Positions 32,556 to 40,302 of a stretch of 64,000 bases of DNA are shown here, piece by piece. The translations under genes and the position numbers were made by a program. The notes beneath the pieces were generated by a model. The model was given only the letters and a program-made list of their open reading frames with translations, was not told where the DNA came from and did not search any database. Source of the stretch: Acidimicrobiales bacterium (GTDB taxonomy: Bacteria > Actinomycetota > Acidimicrobiia > Acidimicrobiales > Acidimicrobilacustridaceae); contig JAURMR010000043.1 of the NCBI GenBank assembly GCA_030830565.1, positions 1 through 64,000 on the forward strand, in the 5' to 3' direction. Every line of letters begins with the position of its first letter. Position 1 is the first letter of the stretch.

Positions 32556-33484
32556 GGCTCGACATTCGCTACCGGACGACATTCATCTATGACGATGTCG
32601 TGACTGAATCTCAGAACGAACTTCGAGCATGCCCGATAGCAGACGAGTATCAGGACCTGATTCGCTATCGAGTGTCGGTACTTCCTTCGACAAAGGTCTC
32701 GTCGTACACCGACTACTGGGGCACTCGAGTGGACACATTCGGCCATCGCAGCCCACACGTTGGCTTGGAAGTGTTGGCTGAAGCCACCGTTGACACAAAA
32801 CCACGGCCTCAACCAGCTGGGGCCTGCCGGCCGGACTCTCTTCTTGCCCCTGACTTCCTTGATCTCCACGGGGAGTACCTCGAACGCACTCCGCATTGCG
32901 ATTGGGGAAAGGCTGTTGCTGACCTCGCGGAGGAGCATGTCGCTCAGACCGGTCCCGATGTCGTTGGACGTGTCCTTGCGCTCCATCGTTTAGTCGGTAC
33001 GAGGGTGGAGTATCGCAAGGGCTACACCCAGGTGGGGGAGCCTGTTGATGAAGTTCTCTCCCATGGATACGGCGTGTGTCAGGACTTCGCCCACTTAGCG
33101 GTGTCGTTTTGCCGCAGCCAAGGCATCCCAGCGCGTTATGTGTCTGGATACCTCTTTACGAGGGATGAAACCGTCCTCGACGATGCTGAACTGGATGACG
33201 ACGAGCCTGTTCGGGTCCAAACCCACGCATGGTTTGAAGCTGCGGTTCCTGGCTGGGGATGGTTTGGACTCGACCCGACCAACCAACAGGCAGTTGGTCA
33301 ACGTCACGTGAAAATCGGACATGGCCGCGACTACGACGATGTTCAGCCCCTCCGCGGTGTGTTCTCTGGGGCGGCCGGAGCCATGGTTACCCCCGACGTC
33401 GAGATCCGACGTCTCGCCATGGCAGAGGTGGGATCGCCTGCCCTTCCCGGCCGGCTCCTTCAGCAGCACCAGCAACAGCAGTGA
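32552..33484 (+). CDS. Transglutaminase-like protein
   Basis: A 310-residue COG1305 protein with an N-terminal beta domain (Y-R-T-T-F-I-Y-D-D-V-V-T-E-S-Q-N-E-L-R) and the papain-like transglutaminase core: Cys in HGYGVCQDFAHLAVSFCRS (about 173), His in T-H-A-W-F-E-A-A-V-P-G, Asp in G-L-D-P-T-N. No signal peptide is seen, so a cytoplasmic role such as amide cleavage or transfer is likely. Third member of the ATP-grasp/alpha-E operon. It ends in a Gln-rich tail. Confidence 0.93.
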   Translation: MRLDIRYRTTFIYDDVVTESQNELRACPIADEYQDLIRYRVSVLPSTKVSSYTDYWGTRVDTFGHRSPHVGLEVLAEATVDTKPRPQPAGACRPDSLLAPDFLDLHGEYLERTPHCDWGKAVADLAEEHVAQTGPDVVGRVLALHRLVGTRVEYRKGYTQVGEPVDEVLSHGYGVCQDFAHLAVSFCRSQGIPARYVSGYLFTRDETVLDDAELDDDEPVRVQTHAWFEAAVPGWGWFGLDPTNQQAVGQRHVKIGHGRDYDDVQPLRGVFSGAAGAMVTPDVEIRRLAMAEVGSPALPGRLLQQHQQQQ

Positions 33485-33554: not shown

Positions 33555-34958
33555 ATGGCCGAAAACTTCGACGTCGTCATCATTGGTGGCGGTCCCGGCG
33601 GTTATGCCGCAGCGCTGTATGGAGCGTCGGCAGGCCTGAACATCGCCCTGATCGAGAAGAACCGCATCGGCGGTACCTGCCTCAATGTCGGCTGCATCCC
33701 TGCCAAAGAACTTCTTGAGACGGCATCGATCCGCCGAGCCATCGAAAGCGCAGCGGCTTTTGGTCTGACCACCTCGGAGCCAGAACTCGACTTTTCGGTG
33801 ACCCAAGCGCGCAAGCAGGGCGTGATTGACGGTCTTATCGGTGGCCTCACTGGCCTTCTGAAGAAGCGCAAAGTCACCGTCTATGACGGTATCGGCACGC
33901 TTCATGCTGGTCATGTGGTGAAGGTATCCGGCGGGTCCTCGGGCGACGTCGAACTTCACGGCACCCACGTGATCCTCGCTTCAGGTTCGGTGCCTCGCAC
34001 GATTCCCGGTTTCGATGTTGACGGCGTCACCGTTCTGACCTCTGACGAACTCCTTTCGCTTCAGAAATTGCCGGCTACCGCTGTTGTTATCGGTGGCGGA
34101 GCAATTGGCTGTGAGTTTGCTTCGATGATGTCCGACCTCGGAACCGAGGTCACGATCCTTGAAGCGCTCCCGCAGATCCTTCCTGGTTGCGACGAAGACA
34201 TCACTCGCGTGGTATTGAAGTCATTCAAGGATCGCAACATCACGGTTCGTACCGGCGTTTCGGTGAATGGCCACGACATCAAGTTCGGCGGCGGCACCAC
34301 GGTGAAGTTCGGTGAAGGCGAAACTATTGATGTCGACATGGTTGTCGTTTCGGTTGGTCGTCGTCCTCTTTCAGAAAATCTTGGACTTGATGGCACCGCT
34401 GTCGCAGTGAGCGATCGCGGCCATGTCGTTGTCGATTCACATTGCCGCACTGGCGAACCCGGTGTGTGGGCAGTCGGCGACCTCATCGCAACACCGGCGC
34501 TTGCGCACATCGGATTCGCTGAAGGAATGCTCGCGATCCGCGACATGCTCGGCGAAGACCCAATGCCGATCGATTACACCAAGGTTCCCTGGTGCATTTA
34601 CTGCCACCCCGAGGTCAGTTTCGTTGGCCACACCGAGAAGTCGGCCAAAGAAGCTGGTTTCGACGTCATCGTGAGCAAACACCGCTACTCAGGTAACGGA
34701 CGTGCGCTCATCCTCGGCGAACCCGAGGGCATGGTGAAAATCATCGCCGAAAAGCGTTCCGATGGAACCGGCGGTCGGTTGCTCGGAGTACACATGGTTG
34801 GCCCGTGGGTCACCGAACAACTTGGTCAGGCCTATCTCGCAGTGAACTGGGAAGCCGACGTCGATGACGTTGCCGCTTTCATCCAACCGCACCCCACGCT
34901 GAGCGAACTGTTTGGCGAGAGCGTTCTCGCTCTCACTGGCCGCTCACTTCACGGCTGA
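33555..34958 (+). CDS. lpdA: Dihydrolipoyl dehydrogenase (E3)
   Basis: FAD enzyme that reoxidises lipoamide of 2-oxo acid dehydrogenase complexes. ATG 33555 gives 467 residues starting M-A-E-N-F-D-V-V-I-I-G-G-G-P-G-G. The redox disulfide is G-G-T-C-L-N-V-G-C-I-P-A-K (Cys 42, Cys 47); a second nucleotide motif is V-I-G-G-G-A-I-G-C-E-F-A; the active-site pair is in Q-P-H-P-T-L-S-E. An earlier in-frame start lies inside the transglutaminase gene and lacks support. The E2 gene follows after 15 nt. Confidence 0.96.
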   Translation: MAENFDVVIIGGGPGGYAAALYGASAGLNIALIEKNRIGGTCLNVGCIPAKELLETASIRRAIESAAAFGLTTSEPELDFSVTQARKQGVIDGLIGGLTGLLKKRKVTVYDGIGTLHAGHVVKVSGGSSGDVELHGTHVILASGSVPRTIPGFDVDGVTVLTSDELLSLQKLPATAVVIGGGAIGCEFASMMSDLGTEVTILEALPQILPGCDEDITRVVLKSFKDRNITVRTGVSVNGHDIKFGGGTTVKFGEGETIDVDMVVVSVGRRPLSENLGLDGTAVAVSDRGHVVVDSHCRTGEPGVWAVGDLIATPALAHIGFAEGMLAIRDMLGEDPMPIDYTKVPWCIYCHPEVSFVGHTEKSAKEAGFDVIVSKHRYSGNGRALILGEPEGMVKIIAEKRSDGTGGRLLGVHMVGPWVTEQLGQAYLAVNWEADVDDVAAFIQPHPTLSELFGESVLALTGRSLHG

Positions 34959-34973
34959 ATCCCGGAGGATTCC

Positions 34974-36347
34974 ATGGCAGAGATTCAACTTCCGCAACTT
35001 GGTGAGTCCGTCACTGAAGGAACCATCACAAAGTGGTTCAAGGCTGTTGGTGATTCCGTTGCAGAGGACGAGGTCTTGTTTGAGGTTTCGACCGACAAAG
35101 TCGACTCCGAAGTTCCGTCACCTGTAGGTGGTGTGCTCACCGAGATTCGTGTTGCCGAGGGCGATACGGTCGATGTTGGCACCATCATTGCTGTCGTTGG
35201 CGATGGAGCGGCTGCTCCTGCGCCTGCTCCAGCAGCGGCTGCTCCTGCTCCTGCTCCCGAACCCGAGCCTGCGCCAACCCCCGTCGTTGAAGCGGCTCCC
35301 GCTCCGGCACCCGCTCCCGCTCCTGTAGCGGCTGCACCAGCACCAGCGCCGGCACCAGCACCAGCGCCGGCACCTGCGGCTGCAGCGCCATCGCCCAGCA
35401 CCGCCGGACAGGTGTTGTCGCCCATCGTTCGTCGCCTCATCACTGACTACGGACTCGATGCGTCTCGCATCAAGGGAACGGGCCCGGACGGACGCATTAC
35501 TCGTGCCGATGTCGAAGGAGCGATCCGCTCAGGCGTTGCGTCGTCCTCAACCGGCACTGCACAGGCGTCGGTTCCCGTCGCTGCGGCCACAACCGGCGGT
35601 CAGCGTCGCGCTACTCCGGCACCTCGCTCTGGCACTGGCGACACCGTTGAATCGCTGAACAACATTCGCCGCCGTACCGGCGAGCACATGGTGATGTCGA
35701 AGCAGGTTTCGCCGCACGCCTACACAATCGTTGAAGTCGATTACGAAAATGTCGAACGCGTCCGCCGCGCTCATCGCGATGAGTTCCGTGCAGCCGAAGG
35801 TTTCGGCCTGAACTATCTGCCTTTTATTTCGCGAGCAGTCATTGATGCGCTTCGTAATTACCCGCATATGAACGCGTCGGTTGGCGACGGTGAACTCATC
35901 GTTCATAACTATGTGAATCTCGCCATTGCGGTCGACCTCGACTTCACGGGTCTACTTGCTCCAGTCATTCACGAAGCCGACGACAAGCGACTTCGTGCAA
36001 TCGCTCGCGACATCAACGATCTCGCCGCTCGTGCTCGTTCCAAGCAGTTGTCAGCAGACGACATCTCGGGTGGAACGTTCACGCTTTCCAATTCGGGCTC
36101 GTTCGGAAGTCACCTTGTGTTGCCGATCATTAATCAGCCACAGGTCGCGATCATCTCCACCGATGGCGTGCATCGCAAGCCAGTTGTCGTCAATGGAACC
36201 GACGGAAGCGAATCGATCGCCATTCATTCGGTTGGCATGCTCGCAATGAGCTGGGACCACCGTGCATTCGACGGTGCCTACGCCGCAGCATTCCTGCGTG
36301 ACGTCAAGGAAATCATCGAGACCCGCGATTGGGAGGCGGAGCTCTAA
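34974..36347 (+). CDS. sucB: 2-oxo acid dehydrogenase E2 (dihydrolipoyl acyltransferase)
   Basis: Core enzyme of a pyruvate or 2-oxoglutarate dehydrogenase complex. Order in 457 residues: one lipoyl domain (1-78, lipoyl-Lys 42 in V-S-T-D-K-V-D-S-E), a long Ala-Pro linker (about 82-140), the E3/E1-binding domain (about 144-180, I-V-R-R-L-I-T-D-Y-G-L-D), a second linker, and the trimeric acyltransferase domain with S-W-D-H-R-A-F-D-G-A (catalytic His). E1 is not in this window, so pyruvate versus 2-oxoglutarate cannot be decided; sucB is the usual actinobacterial name. Confidence 0.9.
   Translation: MAEIQLPQLGESVTEGTITKWFKAVGDSVAEDEVLFEVSTDKVDSEVPSPVGGVLTEIRVAEGDTVDVGTIIAVVGDGAAAPAPAPAAAAPAPAPEPEPAPTPVVEAAPAPAPAPAPVAAAPAPAPAPAPAPAPAAAAPSPSTAGQVLSPIVRRLITDYGLDASRIKGTGPDGRITRADVEGAIRSGVASSSTGTAQASVPVAAATTGGQRRATPAPRSGTGDTVESLNNIRRRTGEHMVMSKQVSPHAYTIVEVDYENVERVRRAHRDEFRAAEGFGLNYLPFISRAVIDALRNYPHMNASVGDGELIVHNYVNLAIAVDLDFTGLLAPVIHEADDKRLRAIARDINDLAARARSKQLSADDISGGTFTLSNSGSFGSHLVLPIINQPQVAIISTDGVHRKPVVVNGTDGSESIAIHSVGMLAMSWDHRAFDGAYAAAFLRDVKEIIETRDWEAEL
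35210..35395 (+). repeat. Ala-Pro coding repeat (E2 interdomain linker)
   Basis: Imperfect GCTCCTGCN / GCACCAGCN repeats code for (Ala-Pro)n with a few Glu and Val. Such extended linkers let the lipoyl domain swing between active sites. The antisense reading is an artefactual Gly-Ala frame. Confidence 0.85.
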
Positions 36348-36349
36348 TC

Positions 36350-38074
36350 ATGGCGACGGCCGGGGCTACCCCCACCGTCGGTATGTCATCTTTGCGCGTC
36401 CGCTGGCTCGGAGTCGTTCCCTATGGGGAAGCCTCCGATCTCCAGCACGCGCTCTTCGAGCACGGCACCGATGATTGGTTGCTGCTTCTTGAACACCCTC
36501 ACGTCTACACACTTGGTGCAAACGCTGACCCTCGCAATGTGCTGGTAGATCCGCAAACTGTCGGCGCGGAATGTCTGCGCACCGACCGTGGCGGAGATGT
36601 GACCTATCACGGGCCCGGCCAACTCGTTGGGTATCCCGTGATGTCGGTTCCCGGCAAGCGCGGTGGAGGGATGGCCGACACTGTCGCGTATGTGCGGTCG
36701 GTCGAGGAACTCGTAATCGGTGCGCTGAAGAATCTGGGGCTCGCCGACGTCGGACGGCTTGAGCAGTACCCAGGTGTTTGGGTTGCCCCTGAATCGGAAA
36801 CGCCAAGAAAGATCGCTGCAATCGGGGTTCGACTCACCCGCGGACGTTCGATGCACGGTTTCGCAATCAATGTCGACCCAGACATGTCGATGTTCACGCA
36901 TATCGTCCCCTGCGGCATCGCCGATAAATCTGTGACCTCGCTTGCACAAGAGGGCATCGACGCTTCGATGGCCGACGTGGTCGACGCGGTCGTCGCACAA
37001 GCAACTGCATTGTGGGCCTCAGATCGCGCTGTCGATCGGGCCGATATCGTCCGTCGCTCGACTGACGGCGATGACGATCTTTCTCCGTTCAGTCGTGGTG
37101 CTGGTGCTGGGCTGCCTGTGAAGACGGGAGCCGATCATCGTGCAGGACCGTCGTTACGTCTCAAGGGCCGATTGGCCGAAGCCGGAGTCGCTGACGGCAT
37201 CGATGTGATGGAACGCAAGCCCGAATGGATGCGTGCCAAAGTGAATATCGGCGGGAAACCGCTTGAGTTGAAGAAGACCTTGCGCGACCTTCAACTCGTC
37301 ACGGTGTGTGAGGAGGCGGGTTGCCCCAATCTTTCTGAGTGTTGGTCTGATGGCACTGCGACGTTCATGATTAATGGCGAACGCTGCACTCGAAAGTGCG
37401 GGTTCTGTTTGGTCGATACCCGGCTGCCTGAACCACTCGATCCTCAGGAGCCTGCACGAGTTGCCGAAGCCGTTGCTCGGATGGCGTTGGACTTTGCTGT
37501 TGTCACAACTGTGGCCCGGGATGATCTTGCCGACGAGGGCGCCGGGGCAATGGCTGACACCGTTCGAGCGATTCGCGATCGGGTGCCTGGCACACAGGTT
37601 GAGGTATTGATTTCCGACTGTCGCGGAAAGGCCGCCGCGCTTGACCTCATTTTCGAGAGCCGCCCGGATGTTTTGAATCACAACGTTGAAACAGTTCCGC
37701 GATTACAGCGCGCCGTTCGTCCATCGGCTGGCTACGCCCGCTCTCTTGCCGTGTTGGCTCGAGCAAAACGTGCAGGCCTGTTGACAAAGTCAGGGCTCGT
37801 CGTAGGTATGGGCGAAACCGATGACGAGATCGCGACAGTGTTGGCCGATCTTGCCGGTATCGGAGTCTCTATTGTCACGATCGGCCAGTACCTGCGTCCG
37901 ACCTCGACACATTTGCCCGTTGACCGTTGGGTGACTCCGGAGCAGTTCGCGTCCTATGCGGCCTTGGGTCACAGCTTGGGTATTGATCATGTCGAATCAA
38001 GCCCATTGACCCGCTCAAGTTTTCATGCAAAGCAAGCGGCTGCCGTAAGTGCTGTTCCTGTCACGCTGCGTTAA
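36350..38074 (+). CDS. lipB-lipA: LipB-LipA fusion: octanoyltransferase and lipoyl synthase in one chain
   Basis: One uninterrupted 574-residue frame carries both steps of lipoate synthesis. Residues about 15-225 are LipB: R-G-G-D-V-T-Y-H-G-P-G-Q-L (80-92), acyl Lys 154 in R-K-I-A-A-I-G-V-R, nucleophile Cys 188 in H-I-V-P-C-G-I. Residues about 226-284 are a low-complexity linker. About 285-574 is LipA: auxiliary-cluster Cys 320/325/331, radical-SAM C-x3-C-x2-C at 346/350/353, R-S-S-F-H-A near the end. lipB and lipA are normally separate genes. It begins 2 nt after E2, its substrate protein. An internal start near 37204 could also yield free LipA. Confidence 0.93.
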   Translation: MATAGATPTVGMSSLRVRWLGVVPYGEASDLQHALFEHGTDDWLLLLEHPHVYTLGANADPRNVLVDPQTVGAECLRTDRGGDVTYHGPGQLVGYPVMSVPGKRGGGMADTVAYVRSVEELVIGALKNLGLADVGRLEQYPGVWVAPESETPRKIAAIGVRLTRGRSMHGFAINVDPDMSMFTHIVPCGIADKSVTSLAQEGIDASMADVVDAVVAQATALWASDRAVDRADIVRRSTDGDDDLSPFSRGAGAGLPVKTGADHRAGPSLRLKGRLAEAGVADGIDVMERKPEWMRAKVNIGGKPLELKKTLRDLQLVTVCEEAGCPNLSECWSDGTATFMINGERCTRKCGFCLVDTRLPEPLDPQEPARVAEAVARMALDFAVVTTVARDDLADEGAGAMADTVRAIRDRVPGTQVEVLISDCRGKAAALDLIFESRPDVLNHNVETVPRLQRAVRPSAGYARSLAVLARAKRAGLLTKSGLVVGMGETDDEIATVLADLAGIGVSIVTIGQYLRPTSTHLPVDRWVTPEQFASYAALGHSLGIDHVESSPLTRSSFHAKQAAAVSAVPVTLR

Positions 38075-38172: not shown

Positions 38173-40302
38173 GTGCTGGATAAGTCCGAGTACTTCGATA
38201 GCTCCTACTACGGACAACAAGTTCAGGGGTTGCAGGCAACACCGCCGAAGGACCTCGTGAGTCATTACGAGTCGGTCGGTTGGCGGTTCGGCCTCGATCC
38301 GCATCCGTTGTTTTCGACAAATGGCTACCTTTCCGAGAATCCAGACGTATGGAAAGCGGGAGTGAATCCTCTTGTCCATTATGAAAAGTGGGGGCGAAGC
38401 GAGCTACGGACTGTCATTTCTGTTGCCGAGTATGAAGGTAGGCATCATTCGAAGAAGATCATTCGCCGCGTGGGATTACTCGACCTTGCGCACTACCAAT
38501 CGCAGGTGCCTGGCGAACATTTCGATGATGTCCTGAGTGCTCTTGATCACTATCTCGAAACTGGTTGGCGAATCGGGTTGGATCCTCATCCAACGTTCTC
38601 CACTGCTGGCTACCTGCACGACAATCCCGATGTTGCACCAGGCCAAAGCGATCCGTTGACACACTTCGTGCATCACGGCTTTCTCGAAGGAAGACCGCCT
38701 GTAGATCCCGTTGCGTTTTCCCGGCCCGGGTACCGCGCTCCGGATTCGCCGTCGGTTGCAGCCATTCGAGAATCTCTCACTTTGTATCTACGTCACCTAG
38801 GTATCGATTTCGACTCTCAAGACTTAGATCTTGCCGGTGATGTTTCTTGCCAGCAGGGGGACCTGGATTGGTTTGACGCGGATTTTTACCTTCGCATGTA
38901 TGCCGACGTCGACGCGGCGGGAATTTCCGCCCTCGCCCACTTCGTGAGTGATGGCCACCGGGAAGGCCGATTTCCGAACGCGGCAACTGCGGATGCGTTT
39001 TCGCTACGGACTGACACGAAGCGCGTCCTTATGGCGAGATCGGTACCTGTCCAAGTTTGCGATCAGGATGCCGACGGGGTTGTCGATCGTCGAACCGGAT
39101 CTTCGGTCATCTCAGAACTTCTTGAACGTGGACTACTCGCAAACGGGAAAGTCATCGTCGCCTTCGCGCACGACGATTATGCCGAACATATCGGAGGCAT
39201 CCAGATCGTTTCGGCGCGCGAGGAGGTGATATTCCGAGAACTTGGCGACTCGTACATCTCGATCTTTCCGTCTCGTGAATCGATCGCCTTGAGCGCCTCA
39301 ACTCCGGAGGAGTTCCTTGTCCGGTGTCGTGTCGGCGGCGAACTCCTCGATGGCGCATTTCCGCTCGTCGATTTTGCTGATGCGTTTGCGGGCTGGTCTG
39401 CTGAGCGGAGCGTTGTTGTCGTAATGCACTCAGTTCTCGGCCACTCGCCTGAAGCAATTATGAAGTCGATGGAACGACTTCAACCCTTGTCAGCGTTCTG
39501 GTGGATCCACGATTTTTCAATCCACTGCCAGAATTATCGACTCACGCGGAACGGCGTGAATTGGTGCGGTGATCCAGCGCCCGACAGCCAGTCATGTCAA
39601 TTGTGTTCGTACGGTCTCGTTCGTCGGAAACATATCGATCGAATTCGATCGCTCATTGACGGTGTCGATTGGGTTTTCGTCGCTCCCTCTGAGGTCGCGG
39701 CCGAACAATCAGTAGGTGGCCATACGCCGTTACCTCGACGCCCTTTGGTGATTCCACATGGCTCGATTTGGCGAGACGGGGCTACGCGAGATCCTTGCAA
39801 CGCGAACGAAAAGGTGCGCCTCGCTTTTGTGGGACAACCGTCCCCGACCAAAGGATGGGATCGATTCCTTTCACTTCTTTCTCAAAGTGGGCAGTACGCG
39901 GACAGCTTCGAATATTTTCACTTAGGAACTGGCGAGCAATCTGTGCCTGGACTTAGTTTTTTCGAACTCAAGCCAGAGCCGGGCGGCCGTTCCGCTGCGA
40001 CACAAAAACTTCTTCAACATCGCATTGACGCAGTAGTGAATTTCGTCGACGGGAAAGAAACCTTCAACTTTGTGACGTTCGAGGCAATGGCCGCCGGATG
40101 CTGCATCGTTACCTCCCCACGATCGGGGAACGTTGTTGCCGCAGCATCTGCAGAAAATCTCCTGATTGAACGCGAGGATGACTTCGCCAATCTTGACTAC
40201 TTGGCGTTGAGAGATGAGATACGACGGAAACGCCGAAACGATATTGGCGAATTCCGCTTGACGGGTTTGACCCCGTCACTGCTATCGGAGACAACGTTTT
40301 GA
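38173..40302 (+). CDS. Glycosyltransferase with N-terminal FDxxYY/NPDV repeats
   Basis: A 709-residue protein in two halves. The first about 280 residues hold repeats of the type F-D-S-S-Y-Y, H-Y-x-x-x-G-W-R-x-G-L-D-P-H-P-x-F-S-T-x-G-Y-L-x-x-N-P-D-V, seen in polysaccharide glycosyltransferases; clear units lie near residues 8-65, 90-165 and 235-270. The second half (about 330-700) is a GT4-like fold: H-I-G-G-I-Q, I-P-H-G-S-I-W, FVGQPSPTKGWDRFL, and F-V-T-F-E-A-M-A-A-G. No signal or membrane helix. Likely builds a surface glycan. Confidence 0.8.
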   Translation: MLDKSEYFDSSYYGQQVQGLQATPPKDLVSHYESVGWRFGLDPHPLFSTNGYLSENPDVWKAGVNPLVHYEKWGRSELRTVISVAEYEGRHHSKKIIRRVGLLDLAHYQSQVPGEHFDDVLSALDHYLETGWRIGLDPHPTFSTAGYLHDNPDVAPGQSDPLTHFVHHGFLEGRPPVDPVAFSRPGYRAPDSPSVAAIRESLTLYLRHLGIDFDSQDLDLAGDVSCQQGDLDWFDADFYLRMYADVDAAGISALAHFVSDGHREGRFPNAATADAFSLRTDTKRVLMARSVPVQVCDQDADGVVDRRTGSSVISELLERGLLANGKVIVAFAHDDYAEHIGGIQIVSAREEVIFRELGDSYISIFPSRESIALSASTPEEFLVRCRVGGELLDGAFPLVDFADAFAGWSAERSVVVVMHSVLGHSPEAIMKSMERLQPLSAFWWIHDFSIHCQNYRLTRNGVNWCGDPAPDSQSCQLCSYGLVRRKHIDRIRSLIDGVDWVFVAPSEVAAEQSVGGHTPLPRRPLVIPHGSIWRDGATRDPCNANEKVRLAFVGQPSPTKGWDRFLSLLSQSGQYADSFEYFHLGTGEQSVPGLSFFELKPEPGGRSAATQKLLQHRIDAVVNFVDGKETFNFVTFEAMAAGCCIVTSPRSGNVVAAASAENLLIEREDDFANLDYLALRDEIRRKRRNDIGEFRLTGLTPSLLSETTF

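Follow-up and report, generated by a model that had tools for sequence, protein, structure and literature searches.

A LipB-LipA gene fusion conserved across the sampled Acidimicrobiia encodes a probable bifunctional lipoylation enzyme

Gene content and domain make-up of the locus

We analyzed a window of 64,000 nucleotides, meaning the whole stretch of DNA considered here (contig JAURMR010000043.1 of assembly GCA_030830565.1, from an Acidimicrobiales bacterium). Within this window, a single reading frame joins an octanoyltransferase (LipB) to a lipoyl synthase (LipA) behind genes for a dihydrolipoyl dehydrogenase (E3) and a dihydrolipoyl acyltransferase (E2; Table 1). The fused frame runs from an ATG at 36350 to a TAA at 38072-38074 with no internal stop over its 574 codons, and its product has a calculated mass of 61.0 kDa. 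The E2 frame ends at 36347, which bears out the 2-nt gap between E2 and the fusion described in the first-pass annotation. The start of E3 was set at the methionine of MAENFDVV; the mechanical open reading frame starts at 33321. A single lipoyl domain occupies residues 3-74 of the E2 protein, which also contains a Pro/Ala-rich linker and scores 416.8 bits with TIGR02927 (SucB_Actino), slightly below the cut-off of 423.45. It is a likely substrate of the fusion.

Table 1. Features of the E3-E2-lipB-lipA locus, in window coordinates.
Feature	Position	Strand	Evidence
Dihydrolipoyl dehydrogenase (E3)	33555..34958	+	TIGR01350, 468.6 bits, above cut-off
E2 dihydrolipoyl acyltransferase	34974..36347	+	Pfam Biotin_lipoyl, E3_binding, 2-oxoacid_dh
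LipB-LipA fusion gene	36350..38074	+	574 aa; one frame, both families, conserved in relatives
LipB octanoyltransferase part	36389..37054	+	Residues ~14-235; LplA-B_cat 25-217; match to 1w66
LipB catalytic Lys154 codon	36809..36811	+	K in 115/115 aligned proteins
LipB catalytic Cys188 codon	36911..36913	+	C in 115/115 aligned proteins
Fusion-specific spacer	37055..37150	+	Residues ~236-267; borders drawn visually from a comparison with separate LipB and LipA genes
Spacer motif DLSPFSRGAGAG	37076..37111	+	Residues 243-254; DNA pattern matched once in window
LipA lipoyl synthase part	37151..38050	+	Residues ~268-567, N-terminal extension 268-287 included; TIGR00510
Auxiliary [4Fe-4S] cluster motif CEEAGCPNLSEC	37307..37342	+	Residues 320-331; three C in 115/115
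Radical-SAM cluster motif CTRKCGFC	37385..37408	+	Residues 346-353; three C in 115/115
C-terminal RSSFHA	38012..38029	+	Residues 555-560; R555 and S556 in 115/115, S557 in 114/115

Both halves are complete by profile and by residue, as had been claimed from the first reading of the sequence (Lys 154 and Cys 188 for LipB, both cysteine triads for LipA). The Pfam models LplA-B_cat (residues 25-217), LIAS_N (288-325), and Radical_SAM (344-500) each match the fusion protein above cut-off, as do the NCBIfam models for LipB (TIGR00214, 139.6 bits against a cut-off of 83.55) and LipA (TIGR00510, 343.4 bits against 310.25). Residue conservation was assessed over 115 proteins. These derive from 157 loci scored as fused, which fell to 136 unique ones once 21 same-protein duplicates were removed, and then to 115 after exclusion of 21 that were truncated at a contig end or for which the rule used to pick starts did not work; an alignment of 104 of the 112 X-free proteins (A1) served for summary use only. 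The Cys-Lys pair, which is described as the catalytic center of LipB in the available text of PMC9307952, is invariant across all 115. So are the auxiliary-cluster triad (C320/C325/C331 in the window protein) and the radical-SAM triad (C346/C350/C353), and the sole exception to the C-terminal RSS is one undetermined residue (X) at S557. The roles of the triads and of RSS are those that we assume for LipA in general, the serine of RSSFHA presumably being a ligand of the auxiliary cluster.

The Mycobacterium tuberculosis proteins are the nearest solved structures by fold and the best sequence match for each half. LipB (1w66) matches residues 11-220 of the fusion by sequence. In the fold search it is 42% identical, with a target TM of 0.87, and LipA (5exi/5exk) is 50-52% identical over the aligned part, with a target TM of 0.94 for 5exk. 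The two folds are the same in both organisms, but in M. tuberculosis LipB and LipA are separate proteins, whereas the window encodes one protein with an extra spacer motif.

The association with E2 extends across the class. Among the 132 unique class loci with at least 600 nt of upstream sequence, E2 lies within 100 nt upstream of the fusion in 120 (overlapping it in 60, depending on the choice of start) and farther away in 2; none was found in the remaining 10, of which 7 have E3 upstream. The fusion may be the last gene of the conserved cluster, as far as the short flanks allow a judgment. The gene that follows the fusion in the window (38173-40302) was matched in 13 loci only, all from the window's genus. 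At the other end, the first 13 codons of the fusion (36350-36388) have a within-genus pS of 0.144 over few sites, compared with ~0.5 elsewhere, perhaps because of the translation start or coupling to E2.

Distribution and origin of the fusion

The fusion is conserved class-wide in the genomes sampled. Our class sample comprised 149 genomes of at least 90% completeness (the window's own genome excepted), with class judged from record titles. Proteins with both domains, which the first-pass annotation had proposed searching for in Acidimicrobiia, were found in every matched genome (142 of 149), and the two halves share a frame in all 142. A single alignment covers both halves in 112; the match is split or cut in the other 30, and here too the halves share a frame in each, as seen in the DNA itself for 29 and from equal open frames for one (G027). 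Contig ends cut the fusion in five genomes (G097, G123, G129, G145, and G149). A second set of 61 relatives, including the own genome and sharing 15 genomes with the class sample, gave matches in 55: 43 in a single alignment, 9 as two alignments with equal open frames, and 3 cut by a contig end with the junction covered, these last 12 judged mostly from the match table. The 7 class genomes (91-96% complete) and 6 relatives without a match are taken as gaps. The own genome (2.0 Mb, 71% complete) has the fusion as its single match.

A stop or frameshift in the linker, once raised as a concern, is unlikely, since the halves are in frame or spanned across the junction in 55 of 55 matched relatives and 142 of 142 matched class genomes. 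In-frame stops had been flagged in 11 genomes (G029, G047, G061, G064, G076, G081, G093, G136, G158, G164, and G180). On reading these and G070, we found one open frame holding both halves in each, with the flagged stop at the end of LipA or out of frame. The window's genome is itself a 71% complete bin, which would allow for an assembly or annotation artefact, but the probability of this is negligible given the same arrangement in every matched class genome, single-contig ones and an isolate included. That isolate, Ferrithrix thermotolerans DSM 19514, was among the best 80 of 449 loci in a search of genome contigs; all 80 were fused, in a selection biased to the query. Many of these records are titled Acidimicrobiia, Acidimicrobiales, Microthrixaceae, or Ilumatobacteraceae, and the ill-fitting titles (Bifidobacterium breve, Acidobacteria, and Thermoanaerobacterales) look like mislabelled bins.

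Two class genomes call for comment. In G149 (6% contamination), the LipA contig starts inside the gene, with only a LipB-like tail before LipA, and a different contig carries a lone LipB that ends in a stop of its own (L205, G149:C255); G149 thus likely carries the fusion, seen only in part. In G105, the fusion (L173) occurs alongside unfused lipB and lipA genes on a contig of 5 kb (L174, G105:C83), and we suspect contamination or extra copies.

Outside the class, none of the 38 loci read as DNA in our phylum sample was fused. These came from 35 of the 112 matched outside genomes, three genomes being counted twice; both genes were present and apart in 28 loci, and LipA stood without a nearby LipB in 10. 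For the other outside genomes, we relied on the lengths of the LipA open frames in the match list, which fall short of what a fusion would need (one of 494 aa, in G308, is borderline), and a few, such as G243, G247, G289, G312, and G321, gave weak or partial matches only. Apparent fusions in G227 and G298 were rejected on account of stops between the halves. A plasmid search returned 215 records, all below 60% identity, and among the 30 listed, those with both halves annotated (H3 and H8) have separate genes by annotation. In the genomes examined, the fusion sets the class apart from the rest of the phylum.

In the separate-gene lineages, many loci, though not all, have lipB and lipA side by side with only a short gap. 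Some Actinomycetota (L181 and L183-L186) have the order E3, E2, lipB, lipA, the same genes in the same order as in the window with E2 upstream, and others have E2, lipB, lipA. These clusters differ from ours in that a stop codon and a short gap divide lipB from lipA, or the two lie in different frames. Trees made by a quick method on a chosen subset of rows, with L174 among the separate ones, each place a single change between separate and fused forms: one with support 85 for LipA (76 rows, 47 fused and 29 separate) and one with support 96 for LipB (66 rows, 47 fused and 19 separate). This is consistent with a single fusion inside an older E3-E2-lipB-lipA operon, the simplest account being one fusion through loss of the stop between neighbors. 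The adjacent genes would have been joined once in the ancestral operon, and the joined form then fixed in Acidimicrobiia.

The connector between the two enzymes

The connector had been described as a linker of ~60 residues (~231-287). A connector does exist, but only residues ~236-267 lack a counterpart in the separate genes that we read. The first part of the linker (up to ~235, 'ERxDVxW') is predicted partly as a strand continuing LipB. The last part (~268-287, 'RLxxRLAEAGV') is predicted to be partly helical, and it looks like the N-terminal extension that separate LipA proteins have in some relatives ('REQIQRAGV' in L181, L183, and L184). In most members, the middle segment carries DLSxFSRGxGxG. 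The span equivalent to residues 222-289 ranges from 30 to 173 residues, with a median of 58. In one locus (L175, G132:C138), more than 150 residues with degenerate REHDRA/READGV-like repeats separate LipB from LipA.

Among eight genomes of the window's genus, the linker has a dN/dS of 0.053, close to that of LipB (0.059; LipA, 0.038), with no gaps and at a synonymous divergence of ~0.9. This indicates that the frame is translated through the linker. AlphaFold2 models the window protein with a pLDDT of 85.9 and a pTM of 0.89, residues 231-270 lying at 51-69 in blocks of ten, and the Ferrithrix fusion, which is without the motif, with a pLDDT of 89.4 and a pTM of 0.90, residues 217-241 lying below 50. 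A high pTM combined with a disordered tether suggests that the predicted domains themselves prefer one arrangement. The connector is conserved yet apparently flexible.

A probable two-step lipoylation enzyme and the alternatives

From the domain content and conserved residues, it is very probable that the gene encodes a bifunctional LipB-LipA lipoylation enzyme. The class-wide frame, the purifying selection on the linker, the invariant active sites, and the lack of a conserved internal start together support a natural bifunctional protein well. We infer that the cell contains a single polypeptide with both activities and that hand-over between them occurs by proximity. The available text of PMC9307952 and PMC12246082 describes how LipB forms an octanoyl thioester and then transfers the chain to the lipoyl lysine, and how LipA inserts sulfur. 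In the fusion, the LipB half would take octanoate from acyl carrier protein through its Cys-Lys center and load it onto the lysine of a lipoyl domain (of E2 or GcvH), and the LipA half would then use radical-SAM chemistry to insert two sulfur atoms into that chain, with the tether holding its active site near the just-octanoylated carrier. Direct hand-over of the octanoylated domain to the radical-SAM site, as first suggested from the sequence alone, is plausible. The likely benefit would lie not in a closed tunnel but in a higher local concentration and a fixed 1:1 stoichiometry: the carrier must leave LipB and turn before LipA acts, so proximity transfer would be likelier than a sealed channel, and the 30- to 173-residue span argues against a finely tuned one. 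In the human LIAS-H protein complex, the octanoyl chain links the H protein to the LIAS cluster in catalysis, according to the available text of PMC12246082. A real rate benefit from tethering is possible, though we hold it slightly more doubtful than probable.

The fusion could instead be neutral, a stop having been lost once and harmlessly in a gene whose re-splitting would need several changes, with no kinetic benefit at all. The short gaps between neighboring lipB and lipA in many separate-gene loci, the single change on each of the two trees, and the highly variable length of the linker would fit such a history. Gene fusions are also reported to be commoner than fissions in the available text of PMC3917532, so the lack of re-splitting is weak evidence for a benefit. 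However, a useless spacer should drift, and selection within the genus constrains the linker about as strongly as LipB; the high pTM of both models further suggests a definite placement of the domains. On balance, we consider a neutral fusion rather unlikely. The near-LipB dN/dS of the linker would also suit a docking role for the spacer, in which DLSxFSRGxGxG recruits E2 or GcvH, acyl carrier protein, or a carrier of Fe-S clusters that restores the auxiliary cluster, making the fusion a small lipoylation station. Of the 136 unique linkers, 98 contain the pattern L[STA]xF[STA]R, whereas shuffles that preserve composition, though not relatedness, give a mean of 0.1. Outside the class, neither this pattern nor F[ST]RG was found in the separate genes (28 LipB tails and 38 LipA heads). 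Low predicted order, which the spacer shows in our models, is common in short binding motifs, but a low pLDDT can also reflect too few sequences. Furthermore, 38 of the 136 linkers lack the motif, including those of Ferrithrix and of four genera in the same family as the window, and any partner is a candidate only. A docking peptide is thus unlikely in our judgment, and decidedly improbable is its fullest form, a class-defining station in which fixed domains and a disordered DLSxFSRGxGxG peptide would catch the carrier or Fe-S donor and complete both steps without full release.

A further reading is that the gene yields the full-length fusion and also a separate LipA from a start inside the linker. 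In-frame start-like codons are common there (a mean of 3.05 per linker, with at least one in 110 of 115 genes), and the window gene has an ATG at codon 287, right before the LipA core. Such a codon is accompanied by an upstream match of at least 4 bases in 67 of 115 linkers, which by our estimate is about the background rate for three tries; the Shine-Dalgarno comparison is weak in any case, because even the assumed gene start has at least 4 matching bases in only 40 of 115. Against this reading, no conserved internal LipA start was found at any linker position among the 115 genes. At any given codon position across residues 226-290, at most 42 of them have a start-like codon, GTG use in the linker resembles overall valine codon use, ATG is missing from the linker in 71, and 5 have no start-like codon at all. 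A second product of this kind is very improbable, and we retain the single bifunctional protein as the preferred reading.

The chemistry of this protein is known and its architecture is unusual. The NCBIfam family NF053790 (LplA_LipA_fuse, bifunctional lipoate-protein ligase/lipoyl synthase) likewise places an attachment enzyme N-terminal to LipA, judging by its name and matched positions, but its attachment half is LplA, whereas ours is LipB. The window fusion scores 345.2 bits against that family's cut-off of 800 and matches model positions 330-605 only, which correspond to the LipA part. Gene fusions in lipoate assembly also include the ligases Lpl(AB) and Lpl(BA), which join LplA and LplB as two parts of one ligase, whereas the window fusion joins two consecutive pathway steps; LplA and LplB are the partners in the fusions mentioned in the available text of a survey of lipoate assembly across GTDB (PMC10332631). 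Escherichia coli K-12 has the same two functions in separate lipA and lipB genes with ybeF between them. In a literature search that took in few subscription journals, no publication was found to mention a LipB-LipA fusion. Such proteins are presumably listed as multifunctional fusions in automatic database entries, and we would guess that annotation with one name per gene may record just one of the two functions. Separate proteins make it hard to test whether LipB and LipA cooperate on a single carrier, and the natural fusion offers a ready system. It may also help in vitro work on lipoyl synthase, which is limited by loss of the auxiliary cluster.

The complete genome G062 has one GcvH and no LplA/LipB-like protein besides the fusion, so there the fusion presumably serves E2 and GcvH alike. 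Of the 12 fusion-carrying genomes tested (own included), 11 have at least one further LplA/LipB-like protein, usually a weak match, and these proteins might contribute to the first step. A search of the 71% complete own genome gave no GcvH; a genome of the same genus has one. The own genome encodes a second, weak LplA/LipB-like protein of 220 aa (G000:C35:143450-143920; locus L178:1867-2529, + strand), which scores 54.6 bits with PF21948 and far below the named ligase cut-offs. PF21948 has further matches in 10 of the 11 other fusion-carrying genomes tested. In G073 (C1:993926-1092626 and 1171166), we observed four GcvH-like and five LplA/LipB-like matches, some of them adjacent (around 1089676-1092626), a set that may represent the lipoate-binding-protein sulfur-oxidation system (sHdr/LbpA).
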